A stretch of 34,690 nt of DNA from a virus: positions 1 to 34,690 of IMG/VR virus record IMGVR_UViG_3300025131_007093; one strand, given 5' to 3'. The notes below the pieces were generated by a model that ran no database searches, had not been told where the DNA came from, and was given only the letters and a program-made list of their open reading frames with translations. The translations under genes and the position numbers were made by a program. Of the stretch, positions 5,301 through 19,357 are shown piece by piece. Numbering within the stretch: position 1 is the stretch's first letter; every line of letters begins with the position of its first letter.

Positions 5301-6671
5301 CTATGTCACCTTTTTTAGTTTTGGAAGTTTTAATTTAGACAAATTAGATTCTTTATTACTAACTTTTTTTAATTTTGGCAATTTAAGTTTTACATTTGAT
5401 GGCATATTTTCTAGGTATCGGTCTAAAGTATTATTTATAAGTTCAGACATCTTTGACAATGTAAATTTATTACGATTTTCTCTCATTAATGATTTTGCAT
5501 TTTCCTTTATAGAAAATTCATTTTTAAATGCATATTTTAAATTCTCAAAAGCAGAATGTTCATTTATAACAAACCATTGACTTTCAGGTATAATAATATC
5601 TTCCCAAACAACTGATTTTGACACTTTAACTAATTCTCCATCAACAAGACTTGAAAGTTTATTGCTTAAGAAATCAATATGACCACTCCAATTAGAAGCA
5701 ATAACAGGTAACCCAACCATCGTTGCTTCTAATAAAGGTCGACCAAAACCCTCACCATGTGTTAGTGAAACCATACATTTAATTTTAGGATGATTATATA
5801 ACATATTCATTTCTTTATCTAATAAGCTTCCATGAAGTAAATATATATTTGGCAAATCCCACTCACTCGGAAAATTATTTTTAATGCTTTCTATTTTTCT
5901 TTTACAATCTTTATAATCAATTATTGAAAAATTTGCACCACTTGTCTTCAATATAAGTGCTGGTTTTTTCTTTAGATTAGCAAATGTTTCATAGAATATT
6001 TTTATTAATTTAGAAACATCTTTCCTATCTTCACCAAACCCACCCTGACACCACTGACCTACAAAAAGAAAAGCAAATTTTTCACTAACCTTTGTATTTA
6101 TATAATTTATAATATTTTTCTCTTCTAAATCTAAAGTTTTATTACCTATTTTAATTGGTTTATATATCTCATCATCTGTACCCTCAAAAATAACTTCAAT
6201 TTGTTTTTGCACCTTAAGTTCACCGGTTTTTACTTGAGTTCCATCTGGGCGATTTTCCATTTTATCATAAACAGTATTCATAAAACTTGCTTTTGAATGT
6301 TGAGAAGGTACAATAATAAGATCCATTTTATTACAACCCTCTATCCATTTTCGAGACACAGCATTAGTTTCTATGCCAGCAGTTATACCAATATTAAATC
6401 TACCTACAGTTTCAAATTCATTCGGTATTCTTATATCTACATAAATATCAGGTTGCCTATCAACTTCAGGCGTTGATAAAAATCTATCCAATATTAATTT
6501 ATGTTTAGAATTACTCATTTCTAAAAAGTTTTTTGGAGTGTCACCCCATTTAACATCCCATAATTTTATATCATACTTGTTTGAATCATAAAATGAATAA
6601 AATATAGACCTTGCGTGGTCTCCATAGCCACTTCTAGAACTAAATGGTGCACACATTAAAACTGTCTTCAT
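5301..6671 (-). CDS. GT4-type glycosyltransferase with doubled LPKL tail
   Basis: The GT-B enzyme has about 456 residues. The N-terminal strand and loop are MKTVLMCAPFSSRSGYGDHAR. The C-terminal donor site reads SLTHGEGFGRPLLEATMVGLP, the E-x7-E motif of GT4 retaining enzymes, followed by VIASNWSGHIDFL. I start it at the ATG at 6671, which overlaps the upstream stop as TAATG and is preceded by a strong GGAGG; the longer frame has no such support. The last 35 residues hold two copies of LKLPKLKKV separated by about ten residues, an extension not expected in GT4 enzymes and shared with the next gene. Confidence 0.8.
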   Translation of the reverse strand: MKTVLMCAPFSSRSGYGDHARSIFYSFYDSNKYDIKLWDVKWGDTPKNFLEMSNSKHKLILDRFLSTPEVDRQPDIYVDIRIPNEFETVGRFNIGITAGIETNAVSRKWIEGCNKMDLIIVPSQHSKASFMNTVYDKMENRPDGTQVKTGELKVQKQIEVIFEGTDDEIYKPIKIGNKTLDLEEKNIINYINTKVSEKFAFLFVGQWCQGGFGEDRKDVSKLIKIFYETFANLKKKPALILKTSGANFSIIDYKDCKRKIESIKNNFPSEWDLPNIYLLHGSLLDKEMNMLYNHPKIKCMVSLTHGEGFGRPLLEATMVGLPVIASNWSGHIDFLSNKLSSLVDGELVKVSKSVVWEDIIIPESQWFVINEHSAFENLKYAFKNEFSIKENAKSLMRENRNKFTLSKMSELINNTLDRYLENMPSNVKLKLPKLKKVSNKESNLSKLKLPKLKKVT

Positions 6672-8065
6672 TATATAACCTCCAATACATATTTTTTTCT
6701 TGGTGTCCATTTTTCAAATGCCATATTCATACTATCAATAAACCGTTTTCCCATTTCTTCTGAATCCATTCCTATTTCTTTATTTTTAACGAATTCATAT
6801 CCTAAATTTCCACATTTTTCTCTTTCTTCTTTTCCCATATCATACCAATATTTTAATGCTTCCCCTGCATCTTGATATCGACACCTATCATCAAAAATAT
6901 ATGGTGTCGCGGGAGAACCCTGTAAGCTTATATTACTTGGCCAAACGGGTTTAACCCATTCTCCATGATCTGTAATTTTTTTATCATGGTTTGAATAAAA
7001 TTCAATATATTCATCTTCACTAAGATATTTTCCACCGTTAACTTCACCAGAATTTGTTAACACCGGTTTCCTAAATCCACACTGATCTTGTAAACCCCCT
7101 GTTACATTAACAACTACGGGTTTTCCAACAGATAAAGCTTCTGCACTTCCTAATCCAAAACCTTCATTTGAAGCTAAATTTATATAAACATCTATAGAAT
7201 TAAAAAGATAATTCATCTGTTCATCATTAAATGGTCCACTTGTGTAATGCGTAAATATAACATTATAGTCTGGAATCATATTGCTGCATACTTCTGGTAT
7301 ATCCGTACCGTTATCATCTATTGGAGCACAATGAAATACCAATGCACACTCCCTTTGCTTTTCTTCAGGTAACTGATCTACAAAATGCTTATATGCTAAC
7401 ACAACATCACCGGGCTGTTTACGCCGTATATTTCGATTTGAATAAAGAACTTTAAAATTATATTTATCTAAACCAAATTTTTCTTTAAATTCTATAAATT
7501 TATTATTGTGTTTATTTACCTTAAAAAATTTTTTCTTTGAAATTCCATGTGGAACATATGTTATCTGCCAATCTTCATAATCTGATAACATTCTCCTGTT
7601 TATTCCATAAGTCTGCTTTGATATTGCCATAAGTAAATCACAGCTTCTATAAAAATTTTCATTCCATAATGGGTCGGGAAGATCATCCCAAATATTATAA
7701 TAAAAGATTGGAATTTTTAATCTTATTTCATGTTCCATCTGATATAGCCACATCCAAAAGCGCGGATCAGTATAATGCAATATTGCATCAGGATTTTCCA
7801 ATCTTAATACTTCTCTTAAAACTTCAGGATTTCCATATCCACTAACAGGATAAATTTTTAAATACCCATCTTTAACACCTAATTCATCTTGCAATGACTT
7901 AGACATATCAAATATTTTTCCTTCTTCAGGATGATTTATAGCACCACCAATTTGTACCCAATCATAATGATTAGCTGTTTCTACAACAATGTCTTTTGAA
8001 ACAGTAGCTATTCCACTATGCATCCTAAGATCATCTGACATCAACAGTATTTTTTTCTTTTTCAT
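6671..8065 (-). CDS. GT4-type glycosyltransferase
   Basis: The enzyme has about 464 residues and a GT-B fold. Its N-terminus is KKKILLMSDDLRMHSGIATV, a nucleotide-sugar glycosyltransferase opening, and a donor-site block reads NLASNEGFGLGSAEALSVGKP, the GT4 E-x7-E motif, followed by VVVNVTGGLQDQCG. I prefer the ATG at 8065, just after the upstream TAA, over the GTG six codons earlier, which would overlap the upstream gene. It pairs with the next gene as two GT4 enzymes in series, suggesting stepwise glycan assembly on DNA, a virion protein or the host envelope; the target is not visible. Confidence 0.8.
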   Translation of the reverse strand: MKKKKILLMSDDLRMHSGIATVSKDIVVETANHYDWVQIGGAINHPEEGKIFDMSKSLQDELGVKDGYLKIYPVSGYGNPEVLREVLRLENPDAILHYTDPRFWMWLYQMEHEIRLKIPIFYYNIWDDLPDPLWNENFYRSCDLLMAISKQTYGINRRMLSDYEDWQITYVPHGISKKKFFKVNKHNNKFIEFKEKFGLDKYNFKVLYSNRNIRRKQPGDVVLAYKHFVDQLPEEKQRECALVFHCAPIDDNGTDIPEVCSNMIPDYNVIFTHYTSGPFNDEQMNYLFNSIDVYINLASNEGFGLGSAEALSVGKPVVVNVTGGLQDQCGFRKPVLTNSGEVNGGKYLSEDEYIEFYSNHDKKITDHGEWVKPVWPSNISLQGSPATPYIFDDRCRYQDAGEALKYWYDMGKEEREKCGNLGYEFVKNKEIGMDSEEMGKRFIDSMNMAFEKWTPRKKYVLEVI

Positions 8066-8066
8066 T

Positions 8067-8264
8067 TTAATATCCACTTCCACTTACTGTCAAGCTATCC
8101 ATATAATTTAACCTATTTTTAAAGCTTTCATCACTATTATATAAATACATTGATCTATTTATTAATTTTTGCAAACTCATTTTTGTGTTTACTGTATCTG
8201 CTTTAAAATTTTTGTATATGTCTTCTATGATTTTAATAGAAGTTAATTTTGTTGAAACCTTCAT
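8067..8264 (-). CDS. Small ribbon-helix-helix-like protein
   Basis: This 65-residue protein has the short strand STKLTSIKI, followed by two helices (IEDIYKNFKADTV and SLQKLINRSMYLYNS) in the order of ribbon-helix-helix proteins. Such proteins bind DNA as dimers and commonly act as small regulators in T4-like phages. A T4-type late-promoter-like TATAAATA and a GGAG ribosome site lie just upstream, so it may be the first gene of a late transcript that continues into the glycosyltransferases. The fold call is from pattern only. Confidence 0.6.
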   Translation of the reverse strand: MKVSTKLTSIKIIEDIYKNFKADTVNTKMSLQKLINRSMYLYNSDESFKNRLNYMDSLTVSGSGY

Positions 8265-9824: not shown

Positions 9825-10049
9825 TTAATCTAATTCTTTAAGAAATACTGATGGTATTTCACCACAACTTTTGCACGTGTACACTTGAATTGGCGCAAGA
9901 GACTCTTGACCCAAGGGTGACATAATTGCAGATATTTTCTTTATTAAATATGATATTGTAAATAATGAACTATCACATTCTTCACACTTCATTGTCTCTG
10001 CTTTTTCTAAATCTATTTCCTGATTCATTGGTGTTGTTAAATCTTTCAT
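9825..10049 (-). CDS. Small two-knuckle zinc-finger protein
   Basis: The 74-residue product has CEEC (residues 22-25) and CKSC (about 59-62), separated by SLFTISYLIKKISAIMSPLG and a short strand. It is probably a single treble-clef or zinc-ribbon domain. I know similar short proteins in marine T4-like phages but no assigned function. It overlaps the dCMP deaminase gene upstream by ATGA and ends two bases before the FmdB-like start. Confidence 0.7.
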   Translation of the reverse strand: MKDLTTPMNQEIDLEKAETMKCEECDSSLFTISYLIKKISAIMSPLGQESLAPIQVYTCKSCGEIPSVFLKELD

Positions 10050-10504
10050 TTTAATTCCTCACAAATTATATTATTTTCATTTAAAAAATCTATACCCTGT
10101 CTATCTCTATCATATTCTAAAAAATAATATACTTCCTTTATTCCAGATGCACAAATTAATTTTGCACAACTTAAACACGGTGAAATTGAAATATATAATA
10201 TTGTACCATCAGTTTTAATCCCATTTCTTGCTGCATATGAAAGAACATTTTGTTCAGCATGTATTTCATTTCTTTCAGAATAAACTCTATGTTCATCATT
10301 AAAGGTTATAGATGAATATGGTTCCTTATATTTTTTTCTAAAATATTCTTTACAATGTTGTTTTTTTGATGGTGCACCATTCCAACCTGTAGATATTATT
10401 CTTCCATCTCTTACAATTATCGCAGAAACCTTAATTCGTTCACATGTAGATCGCTCTTTAAATGCTTCTATTATTTTTTTAAATACTTTTTGTTCTTTGT
10501 TCAT
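10046..10504 (-). CDS. dCMP deaminase
   Basis: The enzyme converts dCMP to dUMP, feeding pyrimidine hydroxymethylation or thymidylate synthesis. The 152-residue protein has the zinc and catalytic motifs HAEQN and SPCLSCAKLI, plus ISTGWNGAPS, the loop typical of dCMP deaminases. It follows the family B polymerase with a 26-base overlap and belongs functionally with the dUTPase and the hydroxymethylase upstream. The allosteric dCTP site cannot be judged from sequence alone. Confidence 0.9.
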   Translation of the reverse strand: MNKEQKVFKKIIEAFKERSTCERIKVSAIIVRDGRIISTGWNGAPSKKQHCKEYFRKKYKEPYSSITFNDEHRVYSERNEIHAEQNVLSYAARNGIKTDGTILYISISPCLSCAKLICASGIKEVYYFLEYDRDRQGIDFLNENNIICEELK

Positions 10505-12971
10505 ACTGTTTTAAAACTTCATCAACTATAGAGATAAATTTAAATTCATCTAATTGTTCAATGACCTGCTTACTAAAAAATGTATTATAATCTATAGTAA
10601 ATTTATCAGCATTCTTATCAATTAAATATAAATCTTCTTCTAATAAACATAATGCACTATGCCTATCTTTTGGCTTTAAATCATTTTCACATAATGAATT
10701 AACATAAAACAATAATGGATTATCATTATGAGTTATTTTAACATTCAAAATATCATTTGCCCATACTGATGCCTTTAAATGTTGAGGTATATTCTTTTTA
10801 TATGATTTAAATGTTTTACCAAATGATTTTGTTATTCCTAATTTGGAATATGGAACACATTCAATATCTTTTCTAAGCTTCATTAAATCATCAATTATTA
10901 ATTCTTCCCTTACCGATTTTTCAGCTAAATAATTTAATTTAAGCTTAATAAATTTTGGAGCATCTTTTCTAATTATATTGAGACCTTTTATATATTTTTT
11001 ATTGCTATTTCTTTCAATACCATAATATCGTTTTTTTGAATTTCCAAAATAAACATATTCTAGGTCTTTCTCAAACTTTAAATCCATTAAAAAATACTCA
11101 TCATTGACAGTCTTACAATATTTTGTTACAAACTCAGACTTTAACATGCCAGTAAACTTGTTAGCTAACGTGTTAGTGATATCACCAGCAGACTTTCCAT
11201 TCATCTTAACAAAGCAAGAATCAGTATCCCCATAAATAACTGGATGATCCAATTCAGTATGTAATTTAACAGTGGCAAACTTCAGTGCTTCTCTTGCAAA
11301 ATAAGTTATAGCATCAGCACATTCTGGTGTATATAATCTAAAATAATTAAATCCCATAGCACCATAAGCACTATTTAAAATTAATTTAATAGCTAATTGT
11401 TCTCTATATGCCGCATATTCTTCATCCTTAGTAAATTTACCAATAGAAATATTATTGTTTATTTCATTACGCTTCAAAAATAATTTTTTTAATAAAAATG
11501 GAAGTAATCCTAATTTATGTGAATGAGCAAAAAATAAATATCGCTCACCAAATAATTCATTAGAATATCCAGTATCAATATATTCTATTCCATCATCATT
11601 TAAACCATCTATTATTTCATCCAATGATAAACCAATCTTTTTTGCAGACTTTTCAGATGCAATAAATGTTTCTGGACTTATATTAAATGCCATTATTGTA
11701 GTTGGATAAAGACTTGTATAATCTAAAACTGAAACATTTTTATGTACTCCTGGCTCTTTTGGATTTAAAACAATCGCACCAGTATATTTTTGTCTTGATT
11801 TTGTTTTTCTAGTTGGAAATATTATTTTATTATGAAATGAATTTAAAATGTAATTGTCAACAATCATAGATTTAAAAAATACCATATTAATAGAATCTAA
11901 ATTAGCTATTTGTTGAAGATTAATATACAATTCAAATACTTTTAATTTATTGCTTATCTCAATTAATATCTCAACATCTCTAATAGAATAATCTAAAAAT
12001 GCTTTATAATCATCTATCCAATTTTTCCATGTTTTTTCTTGAAGCTTTTCTATATTTGGATCATCTAAAATTTCTTTAGCTGCAGTTTTTAATTTCCAAT
12101 TTGATAAATTATAGTCTAAATCTTGTAACGCATTCATTAAATCTATGTGGTCTAATCCATCAATATAAATTTTCCAATATTCACCCCTCTTATATATTGT
12201 AACTTTATCTACTGGTGATAATCTTTTATAATCTATTCCTAAAAGTTTACATCTATTTATTATATATGGCAAATCAAATTGTCCAGAATACCAACCAGAA
12301 ATAATATCAACATTTTTCATTGACACATAATTTAAAAATCCAAATAATACTTCTTCTTCAGTTTTTACAAAAACATACTCAACATTATCCTTTTTAATAA
12401 TCTCTGGTTCATCAAAATTTTTAGTTTTTTTAGGATTCCAAGAAAATACTGTATATTTTTTTTCATCTGTAGAATACAAAACTATACATGTTATAGGCAT
12501 TTTTGGACTTTCTGGAGTATTTGCATTTCTATCATCTTTATCATACCACGTTTCGATATCAAAAAAGACAATATTTCTATTACTAGACCACTCTATATTA
12601 TTATCACAAATATATCGAAATGATGGAGAAATATCTTCTTCAAAGACTCTATATGGATATTTTTTATATAATTGCTTTTTATTTTTTATTGATGTATAAT
12701 ATACTCTACAAACTTCTTCATTATCAATTGTTTTATAAACTTTACCTTCTTCAACTTTAAAGCCTGTGTATTTTGATAAATCGTTTGAATACTCTTTTAC
12801 ATAATAAAAATAATCTTTATAATTATCAGTTGATCTTTTAAAATTATTATCTTCATCATATCCAAATTTATGAATTTTCCACTTACCTCTATCAAATTCT
12901 GTACAAATTCTAGATAATTTCATGTTAGAATATAATACATTTTTATTATGCGATGAAACAAGTTTTTTCAT
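10479..12971 (-). CDS. Family B DNA polymerase with 3'-5' exonuclease
   Basis: This 830-residue replicative polymerase has Exo I (FFDIETW, residues 136-142), Exo II (SGWYSGQFDLPYI), Exo III (YSIRDVEIL), motif A (VLDYTSLYPTTIM), motif B (KLILNSAYGAMG) and motif C (YGDTDS, near residue 581). All catalytic aspartates are present. The ATG at 12971 overlaps the dUTPase stop as TAATG. A second ATG at codon 17 (12923) starts the conserved body (MKLSRICTEFDRG) and follows directly after the 37-base repeat, so an internal start from a local promoter is possible. A family A polymerase is also present in this window. Confidence 0.95.
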   Translation of the reverse strand: MKKLVSSHNKNVLYSNMKLSRICTEFDRGKWKIHKFGYDEDNNFKRSTDNYKDYFYYVKEYSNDLSKYTGFKVEEGKVYKTIDNEEVCRVYYTSIKNKKQLYKKYPYRVFEEDISPSFRYICDNNIEWSSNRNIVFFDIETWYDKDDRNANTPESPKMPITCIVLYSTDEKKYTVFSWNPKKTKNFDEPEIIKKDNVEYVFVKTEEEVLFGFLNYVSMKNVDIISGWYSGQFDLPYIINRCKLLGIDYKRLSPVDKVTIYKRGEYWKIYIDGLDHIDLMNALQDLDYNLSNWKLKTAAKEILDDPNIEKLQEKTWKNWIDDYKAFLDYSIRDVEILIEISNKLKVFELYINLQQIANLDSINMVFFKSMIVDNYILNSFHNKIIFPTRKTKSRQKYTGAIVLNPKEPGVHKNVSVLDYTSLYPTTIMAFNISPETFIASEKSAKKIGLSLDEIIDGLNDDGIEYIDTGYSNELFGERYLFFAHSHKLGLLPFLLKKLFLKRNEINNNISIGKFTKDEEYAAYREQLAIKLILNSAYGAMGFNYFRLYTPECADAITYFAREALKFATVKLHTELDHPVIYGDTDSCFVKMNGKSAGDITNTLANKFTGMLKSEFVTKYCKTVNDEYFLMDLKFEKDLEYVYFGNSKKRYYGIERNSNKKYIKGLNIIRKDAPKFIKLKLNYLAEKSVREELIIDDLMKLRKDIECVPYSKLGITKSFGKTFKSYKKNIPQHLKASVWANDILNVKITHNDNPLLFYVNSLCENDLKPKDRHSALCLLEEDLYLIDKNADKFTIDYNTFFSKQVIEQLDEFKFISIVDEVLKQYEQRTKSI
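12925..12961 (-). repeat. 37-base repeat, copy 1 (inside the start of polB)
   Basis: This 37-base segment matches 19383-19419 at 32 positions, including 19 identical bases in a row, and similarity may extend weakly further. It falls in codons 4-16 of the polymerase gene. Read on the minus strand it contains TTGTTT, 18 bases, then TATTAT, which would make a sigma70-like promoter. A transcript from it could initiate only a few bases before the ATG at 12923. It may instead be coding sequence whose copy was moved elsewhere. Confidence 0.7.
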
Positions 12972-13408
12972 TATTTTATTCCCGTTGATCCAAATCCACC
13001 AGTTCCTCTATTAGAACTATATGAATATAGTTCATCTTCTGGTACAAATTCTATTGATGGTTCTCCCAGCTTTAATAAAACAAACTGAATTATTTTTTCT
13101 TCTGGAGCTATATTTACTGGTGAATTTCCCACATTAGTTAAATGAATGTGGATTTCTCCCTGATAACCACAGTCAACTACACTTGCTCCAACATCTAAAT
13201 TTTTCTTCAATGCAACACCAGACTTATTGAATGCAACTAGTGCATATCCTTTTGGAACATTTACTTTAATTCCAGAAGGAATAAATACAGATTGTTGTGG
13301 TTCCAAGTCTACTGTATCAAATTCTTTAGGTACAAAAAAATCTATACCAGCATCTGTTTCATTTGCTCGCACTGGATCTTTAACTTCTCTAATTTTAGAT
13401 ATTTTCAT
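12971..13408 (-). CDS. dut: Trimeric dUTPase
   Basis: The enzyme hydrolyses dUTP to dUMP and pyrophosphate, keeping uracil out of DNA and supplying dUMP. The 145-residue protein has the five trimeric dUTPase motifs in order: ETDAGIDFF (1), NKSGVALKK (2), GVVDCGYQGEIHIHL in the form VGASVVDCGYQGE (3), EKIIQFVLL (4) and NRGTGGFGSTG (5). Length is normal. It overlaps the kinase gene upstream by 14 bases and the polymerase gene downstream by TAATG. Confidence 0.95.
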   Translation of the reverse strand: MKISKIREVKDPVRANETDAGIDFFVPKEFDTVDLEPQQSVFIPSGIKVNVPKGYALVAFNKSGVALKKNLDVGASVVDCGYQGEIHIHLTNVGNSPVNIAPEEKIIQFVLLKLGEPSIEFVPEDELYSYSSNRGTGGFGSTGIK

Positions 13409-13967
13409 TTACTTTTTCCTTTATAATATGTTTATCCATAAATTGTTCAACATCACTTAATGTTGATTCAATATTTAGTTTTAAATCAATTAAAATCTTA
13501 TTTTTTATATGTGTCTTTTTAAAATAATCATGAAATAAAAGCCTCTCAATATTAAAATGATTTTCATCTATTGCTAACGATTTTCCATCATCTCTATTAA
13601 TTATATTTTTCCCTAAATCAGTTAACATTATCAATAAAACTTTAACATCACCCAATAAATTTAATAAATTATTTTCAAAATCTAAAATCCACTCTGGATT
13701 TGCTTTTCTATATAATGGACCATAGATATATTCTCCAATCCATGATCTATTTAATATTACATTTATATTATTTTTCTTTGCACATAATAGCATAGTCAAT
13801 ATTGTATTAAAACTTTCCTTTGCCCAAGCCGTATGATCTTTAGCCTTTAAATATGGCTTTGACGATCCAATTGTCATTATATTGGGTGAAATTAAATAAT
13901 TTTGCCTAATAAAATTAATTGTTGAATCCTTTCCACATCTATCTAAACCTTCAATTACGATAACCAT
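13395..13967 (-). CDS. Thymidylate-kinase-like P-loop nucleotide kinase
   Basis: The 190-residue protein starts with MVIVIEGLDRCGKDSTINFI, a Walker A loop at residues 7-13 of the TMP-kinase type, but with Asp following the lysine where Thr or Ser is usual. NRSWIGEYIYGP resembles the LID/DRx region of deoxynucleotide kinases. It could phosphorylate dTMP or a hydroxymethyl-dNMP, the role of gp1 in T4. Because it lies directly after an HMUDK_hel-like protein, it could alternatively be the kinase part of a 5-hydroxymethylpyrimidine DNA kinase. AGGAG lies before the ATG. Confidence 0.75.
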   Translation of the reverse strand: MVIVIEGLDRCGKDSTINFIRQNYLISPNIMTIGSSKPYLKAKDHTAWAKESFNTILTMLLCAKKNNINVILNRSWIGEYIYGPLYRKANPEWILDFENNLLNLLGDVKVLLIMLTDLGKNIINRDDGKSLAIDENHFNIERLLFHDYFKKTHIKNKILIDLKLNIESTLSDVEQFMDKHIIKEKVNENI

Positions 13968-13976
13968 ATTTTTCTC

Positions 13977-15170
13977 CTATGTTATGGCACATTTTCTAGG
14001 ATTTATTGAAATTGGCGCCTTAGCCCTTTTTGCAGCTAATTTATAATTCTCATTACAGCTTTCAAATACACTAAATTGGCACATTGAAATTTCAATTCCA
14101 AAGGTTGTAAATCTTCCTAATTCACTAGATTCTTCTAAATATTTAAGTTCATCAGAAGATTTCATATCAAACCAATCTATTTGATTATCCCGAATTAACA
14201 ATATTGCATGAGATGTAGTTTTATAATTGGCTGGAACATCTCTAAATAATTTTGAAAAAGTCTTACTTGCTCCAGGACCAGCTACAACATAATTTGCATT
14301 TTCATCTAAATTTCCGTGTTCAACATTTAATAAATTAAATTTATCTTTGTGTTCAATATTAATAATTGTCTGTGAACCGATTTCTGGCATTCTTGCTAAA
14401 TTTGATGAAAAATGATAACCATAATAATTTCCAATTCCCCTATGTGATGTCAAAAATTCAAATGATTCTTTCATTGTTGGTTTAGTTTTATAAAAATTTA
14501 TCCAATTATCACTTAATCCAAGAATCCAATATAACATATCACTTGGTCTCATTTTTCTAATCAATTGATCCTGTTTTAATGTTGGTTTAACTTTTTTACA
14601 TGTTGTACCTAAAATATCAATTAGTGATGGATTATTTCTTGTATAATTCCTAGACGCAGTTTGCAGTGATGTTCTTAATTCAGTTGTTCCCCAAATTTTT
14701 GTACCATTTAATTTTGTTAATTCTAAATTATCTAAAATTTTTCTAGTGTATTTTATATTATTTTTAAATTCATAAACATTTACAAAATTCCAATCTGTAC
14801 CTTCAACTATAATTTTAAGAGTGGAAGACGGTCCATAAAATTTAACAATTGCAGAATTTATTAATCTGTCTTCAAACGTTGCTTTTTCATTATAAAATAA
14901 ATTATCATTTAACCAAATAATTTCATCATGAAAACTTCTATTTGGATGAAAATATGGTACTGGTTGTCTGTCCAAATCATTAAATCCAGTTTTAAAATTA
15001 TATTTTGAATTAACCTTAAAAGATTTAAATGTATCAGAGCTATCTATTCTAACTTTCCACTCTCTTCTATTAAACTCTTTAATAAAATTAGAAAAATCCT
15101 TTCTAACATTATCATTTGATAACTTTTTTAAATCTGAATAGTTTAATTTTAAAAAATCTGAAGTTTTCAT
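13977..15170 (-). CDS. HMUDK_hel / thymine-pyrophosphorylase-like base hypermodification protein
   Basis: The C-terminal half of this 397-residue protein resembles the superfamily of alpha-glutamyl/putrescinyl-thymine pyrophosphorylases and 5-hmdU DNA kinase helical domains. It shows a helix-hairpin-helix-like HRGIGNYYGYHFSSNL (243-258), YVVAGPGASKTFSKLF (294-309) and a late MCQFSVFE (363-370), the positions where that family has G-I-G, A-G-P-G-A and C-E-F. The family replaces an activated 5-hydroxymethyl group in DNA with a nucleophile. The N-terminal half (1-180) is not the usual one, and the C-E-F acid is Gln here. The assignment is from remembered motifs and is moderate. It is coupled by ATGA to the FkbM gene. 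Confidence 0.55.
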   Translation of the reverse strand: MKTSDFLKLNYSDLKKLSNDNVRKDFSNFIKEFNRREWKVRIDSSDTFKSFKVNSKYNFKTGFNDLDRQPVPYFHPNRSFHDEIIWLNDNLFYNEKATFEDRLINSAIVKFYGPSSTLKIIVEGTDWNFVNVYEFKNNIKYTRKILDNLELTKLNGTKIWGTTELRTSLQTASRNYTRNNPSLIDILGTTCKKVKPTLKQDQLIRKMRPSDMLYWILGLSDNWINFYKTKPTMKESFEFLTSHRGIGNYYGYHFSSNLARMPEIGSQTIINIEHKDKFNLLNVEHGNLDENANYVVAGPGASKTFSKLFRDVPANYKTTSHAILLIRDNQIDWFDMKSSDELKYLEESSELGRFTTFGIEISMCQFSVFESCNENYKLAAKRAKAPISINPRKCAIT

Positions 15171-16030
15171 AATTTATATTTTTTGATTTGTTTTTTAATT
15201 TGCTTTCTTACAATTTTACTTGGCTGCGTTGGTTTTTTTCTTAAAATTGGTTTAATTCCATTTATTTTTTTATCATCTAAATAACTTAAATCATAATTTA
15301 CTTGTTTAACTTCTCTACGAAAACAAATAATATTTAGTAATCTTAATTTATCAAAAATAAAAACTGGATTAAAGGCATGAATATTCCATTCTTCATGTAA
15401 AAGTTTATATAATTTTAACATTTTTGGATATGAAAAATTTGTCATTCCATGTAATTCTAATGCAAGAACTCTTATGTATGATGGCAAAGATTTTTTAATT
15501 ATATTATATTCATATCCTTCTACATCTATTTTTAAAATTGTAGGTTTATATTTTTCTAATAAAAAATTAATTGGATATCCATTAACAGATTTTATTATTA
15601 AATTTTCATTATAATTTTTTGATGTAATTTTACCAGCACAGGAAGAATTTGTATTATCCTTTATTGAAAAATTAACCTTTGAGAAATCATTATTTCCAGT
15701 TACAGCACCAAATAATTGTGTACAATTTTCATATTTCGATAAATTAAAATCTAAGACTTCAAAATTAAATTCGTCCGGTTCTACCGATATTACCTTTGAA
15801 ACCTTATCGCATATCATTTTACCTAATCCACCTACATTTGCTCCTAAATCAAGAACAATATCTGATTCTGAAAAATCAATTAATGAGTAATGTTTCAAAC
15901 ATTCTCTTATCATTTTTAAATCTACAGAATTTTTTCTATAATAAATGTCTAATTTTTTATAACGTGTTGGTTCTTCTTCAATAATTGTAAAATTTGGTTT
16001 TGAATAACTTTTGAATTTAACGTCTAACAT
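15167..16030 (-). CDS. FkbM-family methyltransferase with lysine-rich C-terminal tail
   Basis: The protein has about 287 residues. SAM motif I is VLDLGANVGGLGKMI (residues 59-73), VEPD follows at about 83, and TILKIDVEGYEY (164-175) is the hallmark of FkbM O-methyltransferases. The last 28 residues are very basic (KIVRKQIKKQIKKYKL), unlike ordinary sugar FkbM enzymes, and could bind DNA. I start at ATG 16030 rather than the TTG four codons earlier. The gene sits between a HAD phosphatase-like gene and the HMUDK_hel-like gene, so a role in methylating a DNA-linked group is a reasonable but untested inference. Confidence 0.8.
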   Translation of the reverse strand: MLDVKFKSYSKPNFTIIEEEPTRYKKLDIYYRKNSVDLKMIRECLKHYSLIDFSESDIVLDLGANVGGLGKMICDKVSKVISVEPDEFNFEVLDFNLSKYENCTQLFGAVTGNNDFSKVNFSIKDNTNSSCAGKITSKNYNENLIIKSVNGYPINFLLEKYKPTILKIDVEGYEYNIIKKSLPSYIRVLALELHGMTNFSYPKMLKLYKLLHEEWNIHAFNPVFIFDKLRLLNIICFRREVKQVNYDLSYLDDKKINGIKPILRKKPTQPSKIVRKQIKKQIKKYKL

Positions 16031-16412
16031 TTTCCATCTCAATTAAATTATCATGATTAACCATTATTACTTTAACATTGAATTTAGAAAAAAGTTTAAT
16101 TTGTTCTGCTTGAATTGGATCATCTTCATAGTGTATAACTACTTCATATCCCTCACTATTTAAATTGTTAATTATATTTGCTTTATGTCTTCCACTATTA
16201 ATTCTAGTCTTATCAATAAATTTTTTATCATTAAAAAAAATCTTATTATGTATATTGTGTTTTTTTAGCCATTTTAATGTAGAATTAGATTCTTCAAATG
16301 ATCTACCAGTTATAATAACATCATCCATTGATGATGGCCTAAGACCAACACCATATTCATCTAAATTAATTACACCATCACAATCATAACTTTTAATTTT
16401 TTTATTTTTCAT
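16017..16412 (-). CDS. HAD-superfamily phosphatase-like protein
   Basis: This compact protein of about 131 residues has the HAD nucleophile motif as KSYDCDGVI (Asp10 and Asp12 from the ATG at 16412). It then has VIITGRSFEES (motif II with Thr), a lysine region (HKANIINNL) and YEDDPIQAEQI (motif IV acidic pair). All HAD core elements are present, with no cap domain, so a macromolecular or large substrate is possible. The longer GTG start at 16418 is less likely. It starts inside the end of the inositol-phosphate synthase gene, so it could dephosphorylate that product; this is inference. Confidence 0.7.
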   Translation of the reverse strand: MKNKKIKSYDCDGVINLDEYGVGLRPSSMDDVIITGRSFEESNSTLKWLKKHNIHNKIFFNDKKFIDKTRINSGRHKANIINNLNSEGYEVVIHYEDDPIQAEQIKLFSKFNVKVIMVNHDNLIEMENVRR

Positions 16413-17685
16413 AATCACTATGTGCCGTTTGAAATGAATATTCTAAATTTTTTGCTTTTGGATTATTTTGAATTAATTGTGGTTTGGTATATTTAGTTAA
16501 CTCACGCTTTGCTAATGAATCACATTCAAACTTTGCATCCATAGTTTTCATTTGTAACGGTGGAGTTTTTTGTGTCCATGCAGATGCTCCTCTTAAATAA
16601 CCAACAATTCCCATTTCAGATGCAACTTTGCAAAATCGTATTGCACTAATAACTACTCCACCAGAATTTGGTGAATCTTGTACAGATAAACGACATGTCA
16701 ATTCATATCTAGCTCCACCAAAACCATATGCTACTATATCAATATTTGCAATCTTATTATCTGAAGCTAAATATGTTCCACCTGGTTTTTGTTCAACAGT
16801 TAAAGATGGTCCAGCATATAGAGTCATTCCTTCAATTCCTAAATTTCTAACTGTATTCTGTCCTTTTAAAACATTTTCCTTTGAAACGTGTTTATCATGT
16901 AACCTATTTTGTTTAGCCATATTCAAAAAATCTGTATTTGCAGTTCTTCCATTTTGAATGTGTTCTTGTCCTTGAGTAGAACCACAAGCTTTATTTTCTT
17001 GTATATGTTGTGTAACTAAAAGTCCAGAATCTATCATTGAACCCTGTAAAACTTCTGATAGTCTTGAAGCACCATATGCTGACCTCATATCACTTCCAAC
17101 AATTGTAACATTATTATCAATTGCCAATTGTTCCAATTCCATTGCATCTTCTGTAGAAATTGATGTTGGAACACAATTTACAATGTGACAACCTGCTTTA
17201 ATTGCTCCTGTTAAATACCAATTAGATGCTTCAGTTGAACCAACTGGTAAATAGCTTATAACCACATCAACTTTATGATACTTAAGCAATTCCATATATC
17301 TTTTTCTAGAAATTGCTGGTTCAGCACCAACCCTAAAACTAACTTCTTCTGGATAATCTAACATATGATCCGCTATTCCATCTAACTGGGGACCAGAATA
17401 AACTATTGCTCCATTTTGTATACATGTATTATCAATTTCATCAACAATATCCATTGAACAATTTGGTTTTGCTCTTAATGCTGTGATCAAGGGTTTATTT
17501 ACTTTTCTAATATCAACGTCAAAACCACAAACATATTTTATATTATTAACTGTATAATCTCCTATGTTTGGATACATTAATCCAACCAATTTATTTTGAT
17601 TTTTAATATAATATTGTGTTCCTTCAACTAAAGATTTAGCACAACTACCTATTCCAATAATTGCAACTCTAATATTATTTTTCAT
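16402..17685 (-). CDS. myo-Inositol-1-phosphate synthase
   Basis: The enzyme converts glucose 6-phosphate to inositol phosphate using bound NAD+. The 427-residue protein has the Rossmann motif AIIGIGSCAKSLVEG (residues 8-22), ISYLPVGSTEASNWY, GSDMRSAYGAS (197-207, in place of the family's GDDIKSQ-GAT), TDFLNM (251-256) and VQDSPNSGGVVISAIR (335-350), the near-invariant C-terminal block. The closest pattern is the short bacterial/archaeal type, not the long eukaryotic enzyme. It begins 18 bases after the SGNH-like gene with AGGAG before the ATG. Its presence within a pyrimidine-modification module in a phage is striking. Confidence 0.88.
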   Translation of the reverse strand: MKNNIRVAIIGIGSCAKSLVEGTQYYIKNQNKLVGLMYPNIGDYTVNNIKYVCGFDVDIRKVNKPLITALRAKPNCSMDIVDEIDNTCIQNGAIVYSGPQLDGIADHMLDYPEEVSFRVGAEPAISRKRYMELLKYHKVDVVISYLPVGSTEASNWYLTGAIKAGCHIVNCVPTSISTEDAMELEQLAIDNNVTIVGSDMRSAYGASRLSEVLQGSMIDSGLLVTQHIQENKACGSTQGQEHIQNGRTANTDFLNMAKQNRLHDKHVSKENVLKGQNTVRNLGIEGMTLYAGPSLTVEQKPGGTYLASDNKIANIDIVAYGFGGARYELTCRLSVQDSPNSGGVVISAIRFCKVASEMGIVGYLRGASAWTQKTPPLQMKTMDAKFECDSLAKRELTKYTKPQLIQNNPKAKNLEYSFQTAHSDYEK

Positions 17686-17703
17686 ATCAGTTCTCCTATT
17701 TTT

Positions 17704-18684
17704 TTAATTATTATATCCAAAATTATTACATCTAAAATTTGGATATCCAATATGTACACCCTTTGGTCTTTCCATTATTTCAACCTCAAACTGTTTTCCA
17801 TCCATATCATACCAATGTTCAGGATATTCAATAATTTCACATGATGCATTTTTTCTCATGTTCTCAATAACTAATTTTGTTATTTCCAATCTACTTTCCC
17901 TATTTCCATAAAACGATGTACCCTTATACCATCCAGTTTTTGCCATTTTTCTAGATTCACTTTCAACTGGAACTGGTGTTGCTAATTCAACTTTAACCAT
18001 TTTATCATTCATTAAATTTTCTGTAAAAGTAAAATAATTTGACCATAAACTATTAGCGGCCTGTATTGGATTTTCTTGTCTCATTATGTGATGCCTAATG
18101 TCAACTGATCCAAACATTAATGTTACTTTTTTAACACCATCTGGAATCATATCATAAATAAAATTTTTATCTTTTATTGCACCATATAATGTTTTTGAAT
18201 CTAATCTAATTACTGGAATTCCTTTTGGTGCAATAGATAAAGAGTGGCTATCACCAATTACAACATGATCTTTTATCATTCGTCTCATGGTTAAAGTTTG
18301 AATGGTTTCACAAAAATTATCTAATTTATTTAAAAAATCTGAATTAAATTTTTCATAAGTTTTTGGATTTTTTAATCTAGACATTAACATTGTACCTAAT
18401 TTTGGCATTTCATGGTCTAAAATAATTGAACTTCCTCCGCCTTCTAAATAATTCATCCACCTATTTAATCTTTCCCACAATTTAGCGTCTGCTCCTCCGA
18501 ATAAATTTAAAGCCCCAGAATAACTAATTCCCATATATAAACATGCAACCTTTAAATCTGTGTAATCAGATTCACCAAATTGCATATCAATATCTAAAAC
18601 ATCTTTCCATATTTTTGCATATGCAGCATTATGAGAATATTTATTTTTTGGAATTGTTCCACTTAATCCAACTATTTTTTTCAT
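17704..18684 (-). CDS. SGNH/GDSL-hydrolase-like protein
   Basis: The 326-residue protein has the SGNH block I as VVIGDSHSLS at 141-150, a block III-like LMFGSVDIRHHI at 189-200, and a C-terminal PKGVHIGYP at 307-315 where the catalytic His would lie. The Asp of the usual D-x-x-H is not in its normal place. About 140 residues with the opening KKIVGLSGTIPKNKYSHNAA precede the SGNH block and are of unknown fold. It may be an esterase, deacylase or acyltransferase on a sugar-like substrate. It lies between the hydroxymethylase and inositol-phosphate synthase genes. Confidence 0.6.
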   Translation of the reverse strand: MKKIVGLSGTIPKNKYSHNAAYAKIWKDVLDIDMQFGESDYTDLKVACLYMGISYSGALNLFGGADAKLWERLNRWMNYLEGGGSSIILDHEMPKLGTMLMSRLKNPKTYEKFNSDFLNKLDNFCETIQTLTMRRMIKDHVVIGDSHSLSIAPKGIPVIRLDSKTLYGAIKDKNFIYDMIPDGVKKVTLMFGSVDIRHHIMRQENPIQAANSLWSNYFTFTENLMNDKMVKVELATPVPVESESRKMAKTGWYKGTSFYGNRESRLEITKLVIENMRKNASCEIIEYPEHWYDMDGKQFEVEIMERPKGVHIGYPNFRCNNFGYNN

Positions 18685-18697
18685 ATATTAACCTTTA

Positions 18698-19357
18698 TTA
18701 TTTTATTAAATTAAAATGTCGTTCATAAATATGCATTGAAGCTGCATTCCAAATTATATCTCCAATTTTTAAATTTGGATAAACATCAAGCAAATCTTCT
18801 AATAATTTATTCAATACCCAATTTTGCCAAAACCGATCATTTTTATATCCAAAAACTGCATCATTTGATCTCATTTGTACAACACAATTTAATTTATCAT
18901 CTCTAATAAAATAAGTTACAGCGTTTGTACACATAAAATCTGACATTTCATGCTTATTAAATTCAACTTGCATTGATGGCCTATTATAAATCATAATACT
19001 TCTTCTTGTATCTTTATGTAATTTAAGAGTATTTAATGCATGATTATATTGATATCCATTTTCTTGATCAAAAATTACCCATCCATAATTTGAATTTATA
19101 TAGCCATTATAATCTGCAACCATTTTCCAAATTTCAGGAGGATCTGGCATATCATAAACATATAATGATTTACTTTTATACCAATCTAATTCTTTTTGAA
19201 CATAATCTTTATTAACTTTACCAAAAATTGATTCTTCATCGGCAATAAATGATTCACCTAATAATTCTATCATCTTTACACCAGTTTTATCAATAACAAA
19301 ATCATCGTTATTATATTTTAAAACCAATTCACTTTTAATATCATTAACTTTTTTCAT
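18698..19357 (-). CDS. Thymidylate-synthase-fold pyrimidine hydroxymethylase (dCMP-type)
   Basis: This 219-residue protein aligns without gaps to the catalytic part of thymidylate synthase. Cys143 (FMCTNAVTYF) matches E. coli Cys146; RSNDAVFG (163-170) matches the Arg166 block; His209 and Tyr211 in MHIYERHF match His207 and Tyr209; Glu56 matches Glu58. The position of Asn177, which selects dUMP in thymidylate synthase, is Asp174. dCMP hydroxymethylases such as T4 gp42 have Asp there. So it probably makes 5-hydroxymethyl-dCMP, although hydroxymethyl-dUMP cannot be excluded. The C-terminal tail of true thymidylate synthases is absent. A promoter-like repeat and an AAGGG ribosome site precede the ATG. 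Confidence 0.85.
   Translation of the reverse strand: MKKVNDIKSELVLKYNNDDFVIDKTGVKMIELLGESFIADEESIFGKVNKDYVQKELDWYKSKSLYVYDMPDPPEIWKMVADYNGYINSNYGWVIFDQENGYQYNHALNTLKLHKDTRRSIMIYNRPSMQVEFNKHEMSDFMCTNAVTYFIRDDKLNCVVQMRSNDAVFGYKNDRFWQNWVLNKLLEDLLDVYPNLKIGDIIWNAASMHIYERHFNLIK

Follow-up and report, generated by a model that had tools for sequence, protein, structure and literature searches.

We propose, with a probability of roughly two in three, that a T4-like phage carries a gene module that decorates the cytosines of its own DNA with inositol. The module lies in a stretch of 34,690 nucleotides (IMG/VR record IMGVR_UViG_3300025131_007093) that was analysed as a whole and is referred to here as the window. 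The analysis established the identities of the genes, a hydroxymethylase of the dCMP type, the protein folds, a near-obligatory and repeatedly re-formed gene association and, in relatives, clamp-type tails. Comparative support for inositol as the attached group is strong; the joining of inositol to the base, and the step of each enzyme, we infer.

Gene content of the locus

A sequence-only reading had described a tight run of eight genes, and coordinates, strand, gaps and profile matches confirm it: all eight open reading frames from the hydroxymethylase to the dUTPase are found on the minus strand, with intergenic gaps of -26 to +18 nt. In order, they encode a gp42-type dCMP hydroxymethylase (18698-19357; PF00303, E 3.5e-13; phrog_160, E 3.5e-46), a protein of SGNH/GDSL fold (17704-18684), which has no Pfam match and was recognised with AlphaFold2 and Foldseek, an inositol-3-phosphate synthase (MIPS; 16402-17685; TIGR03450, E 2.4e-59; PF01658, E 2.8e-7), a HAD phosphatase-like protein with HAD motifs (16017-16418; phrog_415, E 1.9e-9; PF03767, E 2.8e-4, under the cut-off), an FkbM-family methyltransferase (15167-16042; TIGR01444, 56.2 bits against a cut-off of 37.7), a protein of the HMUDK_hel/aGPT-Pplase superfamily, termed HEL (13977-15170; PF18723, E 2e-6), a thymidylate-kinase-like P-loop protein (13395-13967; phrog_761, E 9e-10; TIGR00041, E 1.2e-5) and a dUTPase serving the nucleotide pool (12971-13408; PF00692, E 2e-19; phrog_135). 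On the same strand follow a T4-type DNA polymerase (10479-12971), which clusters with its counterparts in related loci, and a second nucleotide-pool enzyme, dCMP deaminase (10046-10504; PF00383, E 4e-22; phrog_174). From the hydroxymethylase through the dCMP deaminase the gaps are 13, 18, -17, -26, -4, 9, -14, -1 and -26 nt. This gene content supports the claim that the run is a DNA hypermodification module. Two phrog_2170-type glycosyltransferases are also encoded in the window, at 5301-8083.

Predicted modified base

The family profile of the hydroxymethylase has the T4 dCMP hydroxymethylase 1b49 as its top PDB match (E 1e-103). A dCMP hydroxymethylase was defined by Asp at the position of T4 Asp179, which is Asn in thymidylate synthase, together with the catalytic Cys; the window protein has both, and its Asp174, aligning with T4 Asp179, and Cys143 are invariant among 11 aligned relatives including the window. 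The Asp form is present in 156 of 166 relatives. Judged by these residues, the enzyme is one predicted to make 5-hydroxymethyl-dCMP. Since it is a T4 gp42-type dCMP enzyme, the modified base would be 5-hydroxymethylcytosine, not hydroxymethyluracil, and the analogy with thymine hypermodification drawn in the sequence-only reading is not supported.

In phages M6, ViI and phiW-14, thymidine is hypermodified via 5hmdU, a 5hmdU DNA kinase and alkylamine transferases (PMC6449724). The likeness to these systems is that a hydroxymethyl-pyrimidine in DNA is then acted upon by enzymes of the HMUDK_hel/ADDT/aGPT-Pplase group, which the HEL of the window matches. The window differs from them in having cytosine rather than uracil, inositol-making rather than amine-supplying genes, and a HEL that lacks a P-loop kinase domain and has an SGNH-fold partner.

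T4 itself makes glucosyl-hydroxymethylcytosine with gp42 and alpha- and beta-glucosyltransferases (PMC2993671). A gp42-type dCMP hydroxymethylase is common to both phages, but no match to a T4 glucosyltransferase was found among the module genes, and the proposed donor is free inositol instead of UDP-glucose, giving an ether bond to a carbocycle. The predicted nucleoside, inositolyl-hydroxymethyl-dC, is isobaric with glucosyl-hydroxymethyl-dC (C16H25N3O10; calculated [M+H]+ m/z 420.161, or 434.177 with an O-methyl group); as the two are isomers, mass alone cannot tell inositol from glucose, and inositol decoration would be invisible to mass-only surveys.

Proposed inositol supply by MIPS and a HAD phosphatase

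The MIPS family profile matches the inositol-3-phosphate synthase 1gr0 with E 2e-107 over 360 positions. Membership of the class was judged by whole-enzyme homology and conserved DSPNSAG and KTPP motifs, all of which the window protein has; among relatives,.DS.NS occurs in 169/169 and K[TSV]PP in 164/169. With 201 bits against the TIGR03450 equivalog cut-off of 638, the protein is by sequence a family member but not a mycothiol-type equivalog, and its predicted activity is the conversion of glucose 6-phosphate to inositol phosphate. The same profile also matches 6k96, a five-membered-cyclitol-phosphate synthase (E 3.4e-56). Since this match comes together with a score far below the TIGR03450 cut-off, the cyclitol made may differ from myo-inositol.

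The HAD family has a DxDG motif in 149/149 members. Of 89 loci (best scan matches), 82 have its gene close to MIPS, and in isolate phages it is present in exactly the same 18 records as MIPS. The phosphatase probably frees inositol from its phosphate, and the pair would constitute a portable cassette making free inositol, found in hundreds of phage sequences, T4-like ones among them.

It is unlikely, if quite conceivable, that the DNA is hypermodified with a different group: another cyclitol, an inositol phosphate joined through its phosphate, or a further inositol derivative. The match to 6k96 speaks for such a group, as does the FkbM gene that accompanies the cassette in both HEL and ADDT settings. 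However, 1gr0 is by far the better match, and HAD accompanies MIPS in nearly all loci and in every setting (best matches), which points to removal of the phosphate. Such a group is also disfavoured by 44RR-type phages, in which a membrane symporter for free sugars takes the place of MIPS.

Association of MIPS with DNA-modification genes

The co-occurrence of hydroxymethylase, MIPS and HEL genes, a survey of which the sequence-only reading had proposed, was determined for loci that were the best matches of scans and represent a subset of phage MIPS. MIPS was found near 78 of 80 HEL relatives compared with 7 of 80 gp42 hydroxymethylase controls (IMG/VR, best matches), and all seven MIPS-positive controls also had HEL and HAD. 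It was likewise near 70 of 74 ADDT loci (best matches). Fisher tests against the gp42 controls gave 3e-34 for HEL and 5e-30 for ADDT, for loci that are not independent.

The pair occurs in three settings: hydroxymethylase with HEL and SGNH; TET/JBP oxygenase with ADDT (PF18724) and a kinase; and 7-deazaguanine genes. Among 250 MIPS loci (best matches), HEL was present in 152, ADDT in 84, both in none and deazaguanine genes in five; the remaining nine had no such setting, and every one was a short or cut contig. A second MIPS scan assigned 72 of 80 loci to a setting, the other eight being cut. Hence, in two scans of best matches, every MIPS locus whose flanks are intact had a DNA-modification setting. 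The finding of an inositol synthase without the other genes had been named as grounds for discarding the proposal; over several hundred loci, MIPS without HEL occurred only beside ADDT or 7-deazaguanine genes, so that the proposal is not refuted, and the survey supports the inclusion of the synthase in the module. Explaining the settings on a MIPS tree of 92 rows takes 19 changes; at least 13 for HEL, and at least 11 for ADDT, are required by well-supported branches. The cassette switched setting at least 11 times on this tree. Because the MIPS-HAD pair almost always lies beside base-acting enzymes, these phages probably attach inositol, or a compound close to it, to their DNA.

A reading of MIPS and HAD as auxiliary metabolic genes, providing inositol for lipid, compatible solute or glycan and merely sharing the operon, is improbable. 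Metabolic genes often cluster near phage replication genes, and the two phrog_2170-type glycosyltransferases would suit a glycan, but intact-flank MIPS loci are always in a base-modification setting (two scans, best matches), and that setting was swapped many times. Furthermore, MIPS is rare at gp42 loci of T4-like phages, as the controls show, and glycosyltransferases are not among the commonest conserved genes around MIPS.

Caulobacter phage Cr30 and Stenotrophomonas phages Moby and IME-SM1 resemble the window in having the MIPS-HAD cassette beside DNA-modification genes. Cr30 differs in its TET/JBP, ADDT, TAGT-like protein and PF18751-type kinase, and Moby in its 7-deazaguanine genes and the absence of a thymidylate-synthase-family gene. 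We tentatively raise the possibility that MIPS-HAD is a general cyclitol supply, delivering inositol to hydroxymethylcytosine through HEL, to TET/JBP-made hydroxymethylpyrimidines through ADDT and to 7-deazaguanine in Moby-type phages, so that inositol would be a widespread class of DNA decoration. No ADDT relatives were found in cellular genomes.

Proteins predicted to act on DNA

The match of HEL to PF18723 (HMUDK_hel), which had been suggested for this protein, is significant (27.9 bits, above the Pfam cut-off of 25) and is confined to the C-terminal third of the profile; among relatives, the copy in locus L089 scores 39.9 bits and that of 44RR 17.2, under the cut-off. In BFVD, HEL matched the SP10 5-hmdU DNA kinase (E 1.1e-5) as well as phiRSL1 and Lucky3 (6.3e-4). 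A Foldseek search of the PDB gave no significant match and a sequence search of the PDB none; in a second look at the PDB, the top 29 rows were all HhH DNA glycosylases or their homologues (Z 5.3-7.6). We conclude that HEL has a DNA-glycosylase-like fold resembling the helical domains of phage 5-hmdU DNA kinases, and propose it as the base:inositol transferase. A conserved catalytic Asp at the glycosylase position was dropped as a claim, the motif being present in only 68/105. Profile comparison detected no homology between HEL and ADDT (hhalign probability 1.3% and 4.6%), and the notion that they do the same job consequently rests on mutual exclusion and common neighbours; an E-x3-C-Q-[FY] motif is present in both.

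Alternatively, HEL could be only the DNA-binding partner of a kinase, the product being phosphorylated or simple hydroxymethylcytosine to which glycosyltransferases encoded elsewhere add sugar. PF18723 owes its name to a helical domain in 5-hmdU DNA kinase, HEL structurally matches the SP10 kinase, and the thymidylate-kinase-like gene adjoins HEL in the window. We nevertheless hold this to be very doubtful: homologues of that kinase occur in only a few related loci (for example L096, L178 and L181) and are missing from nearly all HEL loci; HEL is not itself a 5-hmdU DNA kinase, since its sequence in the window contains no P-loop (GxxxxGK[ST]); and the near-obligatory MIPS-HAD pair would be left unexplained. 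Being so rare among relatives, the thymidylate-kinase-like gene was rejected as a conserved part of the module and is not an obvious hydroxymethyl-DNA kinase; its product is probably a nucleotide kinase and possibly a hydroxymethyl activator.

The AlphaFold2 model of the SGNH protein (pLDDT 92.6) matched SGNH esterases in Foldseek with E 2e-5 and probability 1.00. The class was defined by the fold, the block I Ser and the block V His, and the window protein has all three. Its motifs are GDSH at 144 and GSVDIRHH at 192; GDSH is found in 155/155 relatives and His311 is invariant in the alignment, while block III, for which the class has Asn (GxND), reads GN.D in 107/155 and has Ser in the window (GSVDIRHH). 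The protein is fused to HEL in Aeromonas phages and is also found without MIPS (56/80 loci, best scan matches); a 381-aa SGNH partner in MIPS-free loci has no detectable relation to HEL or ADDT. It probably acts on hydroxymethylcytosine-bearing DNA and is a candidate for the step that activates the hydroxymethyl group. FkbM genes, present in ADDT-type as well as HEL loci, may encode enzymes for O-methylation of the attached group.

Proposed pathway and phages with related genes

In the inositol pathway that we propose, 5-hydroxymethyl-dCMP from the gp42-type enzyme would be built into DNA, and MIPS would convert glucose 6-phosphate to inositol phosphate, from which the HAD phosphatase would release free inositol. 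HEL would flip the base and couple its exocyclic CH2 to inositol, so that 5-(inositolyl-oxymethyl)cytosine is formed. On the same DNA, the SGNH protein would activate the hydroxymethyl group or tailor the product, and FkbM may O-methylate the inositol. Other phages would plug MIPS-HAD into ADDT after a TET/JBP oxygenase, or into 7-deazaguanine insertion. If true, the proposal would add a new chemistry to the decorations of DNA: a cyclitol, its carbocycle probably ether-joined, resistant to glycosidases and probably also to enzymes recognising glucosylated cytosine. It would imply DNA-acting transferases of a new kind, with a free polyol as substrate, and a phage gene readily taken for part of host metabolism would instead mark DNA modification.

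A search of the literature gave nothing linking phage DNA modification with inositol, a search to which further papers or the MetaGPA supplementary domain list could add a mention. The 5-hydroxymethylcytosine carbamoyltransferase and carboxymethylcytosine systems (PMC8670742, PMC12783734) are other recent phage cytosine hypermodifications with different chemistry, and the main texts of both papers leave inositol unmentioned.

Aeromonas phages 44RR2.8t and 31 have gene 42; the question of what is carried by phages that have this gene but no glucosyltransferases was left undecided in a 2010 review (PMC2993671). Like the window, they combine gp42 with SGNH and HEL, here as a single fusion protein whose HEL part is ~48% identical to that of the window. 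MIPS was not found in 44RR, and a HAD match is absent from 44RR/31-type phages. All 19 Aeromonas phage records with the fusion (19/19) have an SSF sodium/sugar symporter, the gene for which adjoins the fusion in 44RR. Its top match is vSGLT and it may carry hexose; identification of the group as inositol from this symporter was rejected, as that match does not separate hexose from inositol. Inositol decoration, if true, would explain how hydroxymethylcytosine is decorated in 44RR and 31, two phages with gene 42 and without glucosyltransferases.

LExFF tails on DNA-acting proteins

The HEL and SGNH proteins of the window have no LExFF tail, a point against the proposed pathway. In related loci, this tail was found on proteins likely to act on DNA, namely HEL (32/38), SGNH (32/37), C5-methyltransferase (19/19) and TET (15/16), and on the DNA polymerase in 23 of 25. 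It is rare elsewhere (MIPS 1/71, HAD 0/60, gp42 0/34, dCMP deaminase 0/29, others 19/456). LExFF is a clamp-type tail that, in relatives, DNA-acting enzymes have in common with the DNA polymerase and not with MIPS or HAD.

The gene run and the modified base

As the sequence-only reading had proposed, the eight genes at 12971-19357 form a genuine run, all on the minus strand with intergenic gaps of -26 to +18 nt. In order of transcription they encode a gp42-type (dCMP hydroxymethylase) protein (18698-19357), an SGNH-fold protein (17704-18684), inositol-3-phosphate synthase (MIPS, 16402-17685), a HAD phosphatase (16017-16418), an FkbM methyltransferase, the HMUDK_hel-like protein HEL (13977-15170), a thymidylate-kinase-like protein and dUTPase, with a T4-type DNA polymerase and dCMP deaminase following. 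The window is an IMG/VR virus record 34,690 bases long; since UvsX and gp41 helicase lie upstream, we consider it a fragment of a T4-like phage. The module is very probably a DNA hypermodification system.

The analogy first drawn with thymine hypermodification, for which a route from 5hmdU through a DNA kinase to an alkylamine transferase has been described (PMC6449724), needs correcting. The best PDB match of the hydroxymethylase family profile was T4 dCMP hydroxymethylase (1b49, E 1e-103), ahead of CMP hydroxymethylase (E 4e-20) and thymidylate synthases (E 2e-19), and the Asp that replaces the thymidylate synthase Asn in T4 gp42 is invariant across the aligned set. The base is therefore expected, from sequence, to be 5-hydroxymethylcytosine rather than hydroxymethyluracil. 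The computed formulas of 5-(inositolyl-oxymethyl)-dC and glucosyl-5hmdC are identical (C16H25N3O10, [M+H]+ 420.161), so a survey that relied solely on mass would mistake either nucleoside for the other. In the literature searched, no paper connects inositol with phage DNA modification. Phages 44RR, 31 and 25 carry gene 42 but no glucosyltransferases, and whether such gene-42 phages, among which RB69 and JS98 are named, carry another modification is not known (PMC2993671).

MIPS accompanies proposed transferases of changing type

Relatives of MIPS, HEL, gp42, SGNH and the amino acid:DNA transferase ADDT were taken from IMG/VR and their neighbours scored with profiles built for this analysis; the MIPS sample comprises the best-matching loci of two scans, a subset of phage MIPS. 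MIPS was found near 78 of 80 HEL genes; of the two without it, one belongs to 44RR and the other to a locus truncated 0.5 kb upstream of HEL. It was also near 70 of 74 ADDT genes. In the gp42 control it was nearby in 7/80 loci, all seven of which also carry HEL and HAD. L273 and L298, near-identical full-length loci with ADDT, HAD and kinase and no detected MIPS, are the only intact loci of the ADDT scan to lack it.

The MIPS-HAD pair occurs in three settings: (A) with gp42, HEL and SGNH, often beside a C5-methyltransferase-like gene; (B) with a TET/JBP oxygenase (PF12851, E 1e-19), ADDT (PF18724, E 4e-20) and a P-loop kinase (PF18751, E 6e-9), often with FkbM; and (C) with the 7-deazaguanine genes GTP cyclohydrolase, QueE and QueC, often with a DpdA-like gene. 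Loci without an assigned setting (9 in one scan, 8 in the other) are all short or cut contigs. HEL and ADDT occurred together in 0/250 MIPS loci and, in the second scan, in 0/80. Because the loci are related to one another, Fisher values overstate how independent they are, and phylogeny gives the better test. Across a tree of 92 MIPS proteins, 19 changes of setting are required; counting only well-supported branches, the minimum is 13 for A and 11 for B. The smallest well-supported set containing the window MIPS includes settings A, B and C. Retention of the supply genes while the transferase is swapped is expected if the transferases share a substrate. We put the probability that the group attached is inositol, or something closely derived from it, at about three in four.

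Among cultured phages, Caulobacter phage Cr30 carries the entire TET-ADDT-MIPS-HAD-kinase set; its gene annotated 'putative SNF2 DNA repair protein' (L004:3709-5037) is the TET/JBP oxygenase (PF12851, E 8.7e-23). In Stenotrophomonas phage Moby (L003:8204-13618), as in L032, L404 and L439, clusters of 7-deazaguanine genes (GCH1, QueE, QueC, DpdA-like) enclose MIPS and HAD, with QueC directly after HAD and no other conserved gene of unknown function. An inositol conjugate of 7-carboxy-7-deazaguanine is a conceivable product.

HEL and clamp-type tails

Window HEL matched PF18723 (HMUDK_hel) at 27.9 bits against a cut-off of 25, as the sequence-only reading had anticipated; a P-loop is absent from it. 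In BFVD, its AlphaFold2 model (pLDDT 90.7) matched the predicted structures of several HMUDK_hel proteins and of the 5-hmdU DNA kinase from Bacillus phage SP10 (E 1.1e-5). Foldseek gave no significant match to the PDB; in a second look at the PDB, helix-hairpin-helix DNA glycosylases and their homologues filled all of the top 29 rows (Z 5.3-7.6), and unrelated rows scored no higher than 3.5. A glycosylase-like fold is thus likely, not proven, since Z below 8 may reflect a common arrangement. HEL quite plausibly joins inositol or a close derivative to hydroxymethylcytosine.

In RB69, the C-terminal peptide of DNA polymerase binds the sliding clamp. Among related loci, an LExFF-like C-terminal tail was present in HEL (32/38), SGNH (32/37), C5-methyltransferase (19/19), TET (15/16), DNA polymerase (23/25) and ADDT (10/17); the counts were 1/71 for MIPS, 0/60 for HAD, 0/34 for gp42, 0/29 each for dCMP deaminase and UvsX, 0/25 for gp41 and 19/456 for other ORFs. 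Window HEL and SGNH have no such tail. Our reading is that HEL and SGNH would act on DNA at the replication fork and that MIPS, HAD and gp42 would make small molecules. A C5-cytosine-methyltransferase-like gene (PF00145; example L025:6483-7697) whose product ends in an LExFF-type tail accompanies gp42 and HEL in about 30 loci, although cytosine should already be hydroxymethylated there.

Proposed supply of the attached group

HAD was found near MIPS in 82/89 loci, across all settings, and among isolates in exactly the 18 records with MIPS, which suggests that it removes phosphate to yield free inositol. The FkbM protein may methylate inositol. An SSF symporter is present in 19/19 Aeromonas phage records with an SGNH-HEL fusion (81-100% identity). 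In 44RR, where no MIPS was found, it adjoins the fusion; uptake of a free sugar or polyol in place of synthesis fits the same model. The best match of the symporter is vSGLT, annotated as a sodium/glucose cotransporter, which makes a hexose a possible cargo.

The SGNH protein

The SGNH model (pLDDT 92.6) has a clear SGNH/GDSL hydrolase fold (Foldseek E 2e-5, probability 1.00), and GDSH and the C-terminal His are kept in its relatives. In 19 Aeromonas phage records (44RR2.8t, 31 and relatives) a single stretch holds both SGNH-like and HEL-like sequence, in 44RR as one 795-residue protein, which ties their functions together. Since it is also found with gp42 where MIPS is missing, SGNH is a candidate for an activation step in the gp42-HEL setting. 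A tailoring role is equally possible, because Aeromonas phage phiAS4 has SGNH and no HEL: there UDP-galactopyranose mutase, a 358-aa protein and SGNH stand in a row (L005:4763-8035), with gp42 also in the phage, and galactofuranosyl-hydroxymethylcytosine is a candidate product. In 74 SGNH loci without MIPS (examples L382:5808-6953 and L237:2259-3161), a 381-aa protein lies beside SGNH and gp42 in 61 and a PLP-dependent-enzyme-like protein in 56; such loci probably specify a further hypermodification of hydroxymethylcytosine, possibly one involving an amino acid.

Other genes in the window

An NAD synthetase-like gene lies at 34-720 (phrog_11189, E 1e-73); NAD is the cofactor of MIPS, and a link between the two is only a guess. 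Two overlapping glycosyltransferase-like genes (phrog_2170; 5301-6710 and 6671-8083) lie on the same strand, at a distance of about 8 kb from MIPS; they are not conserved around it at other loci and could serve in glycan extension.
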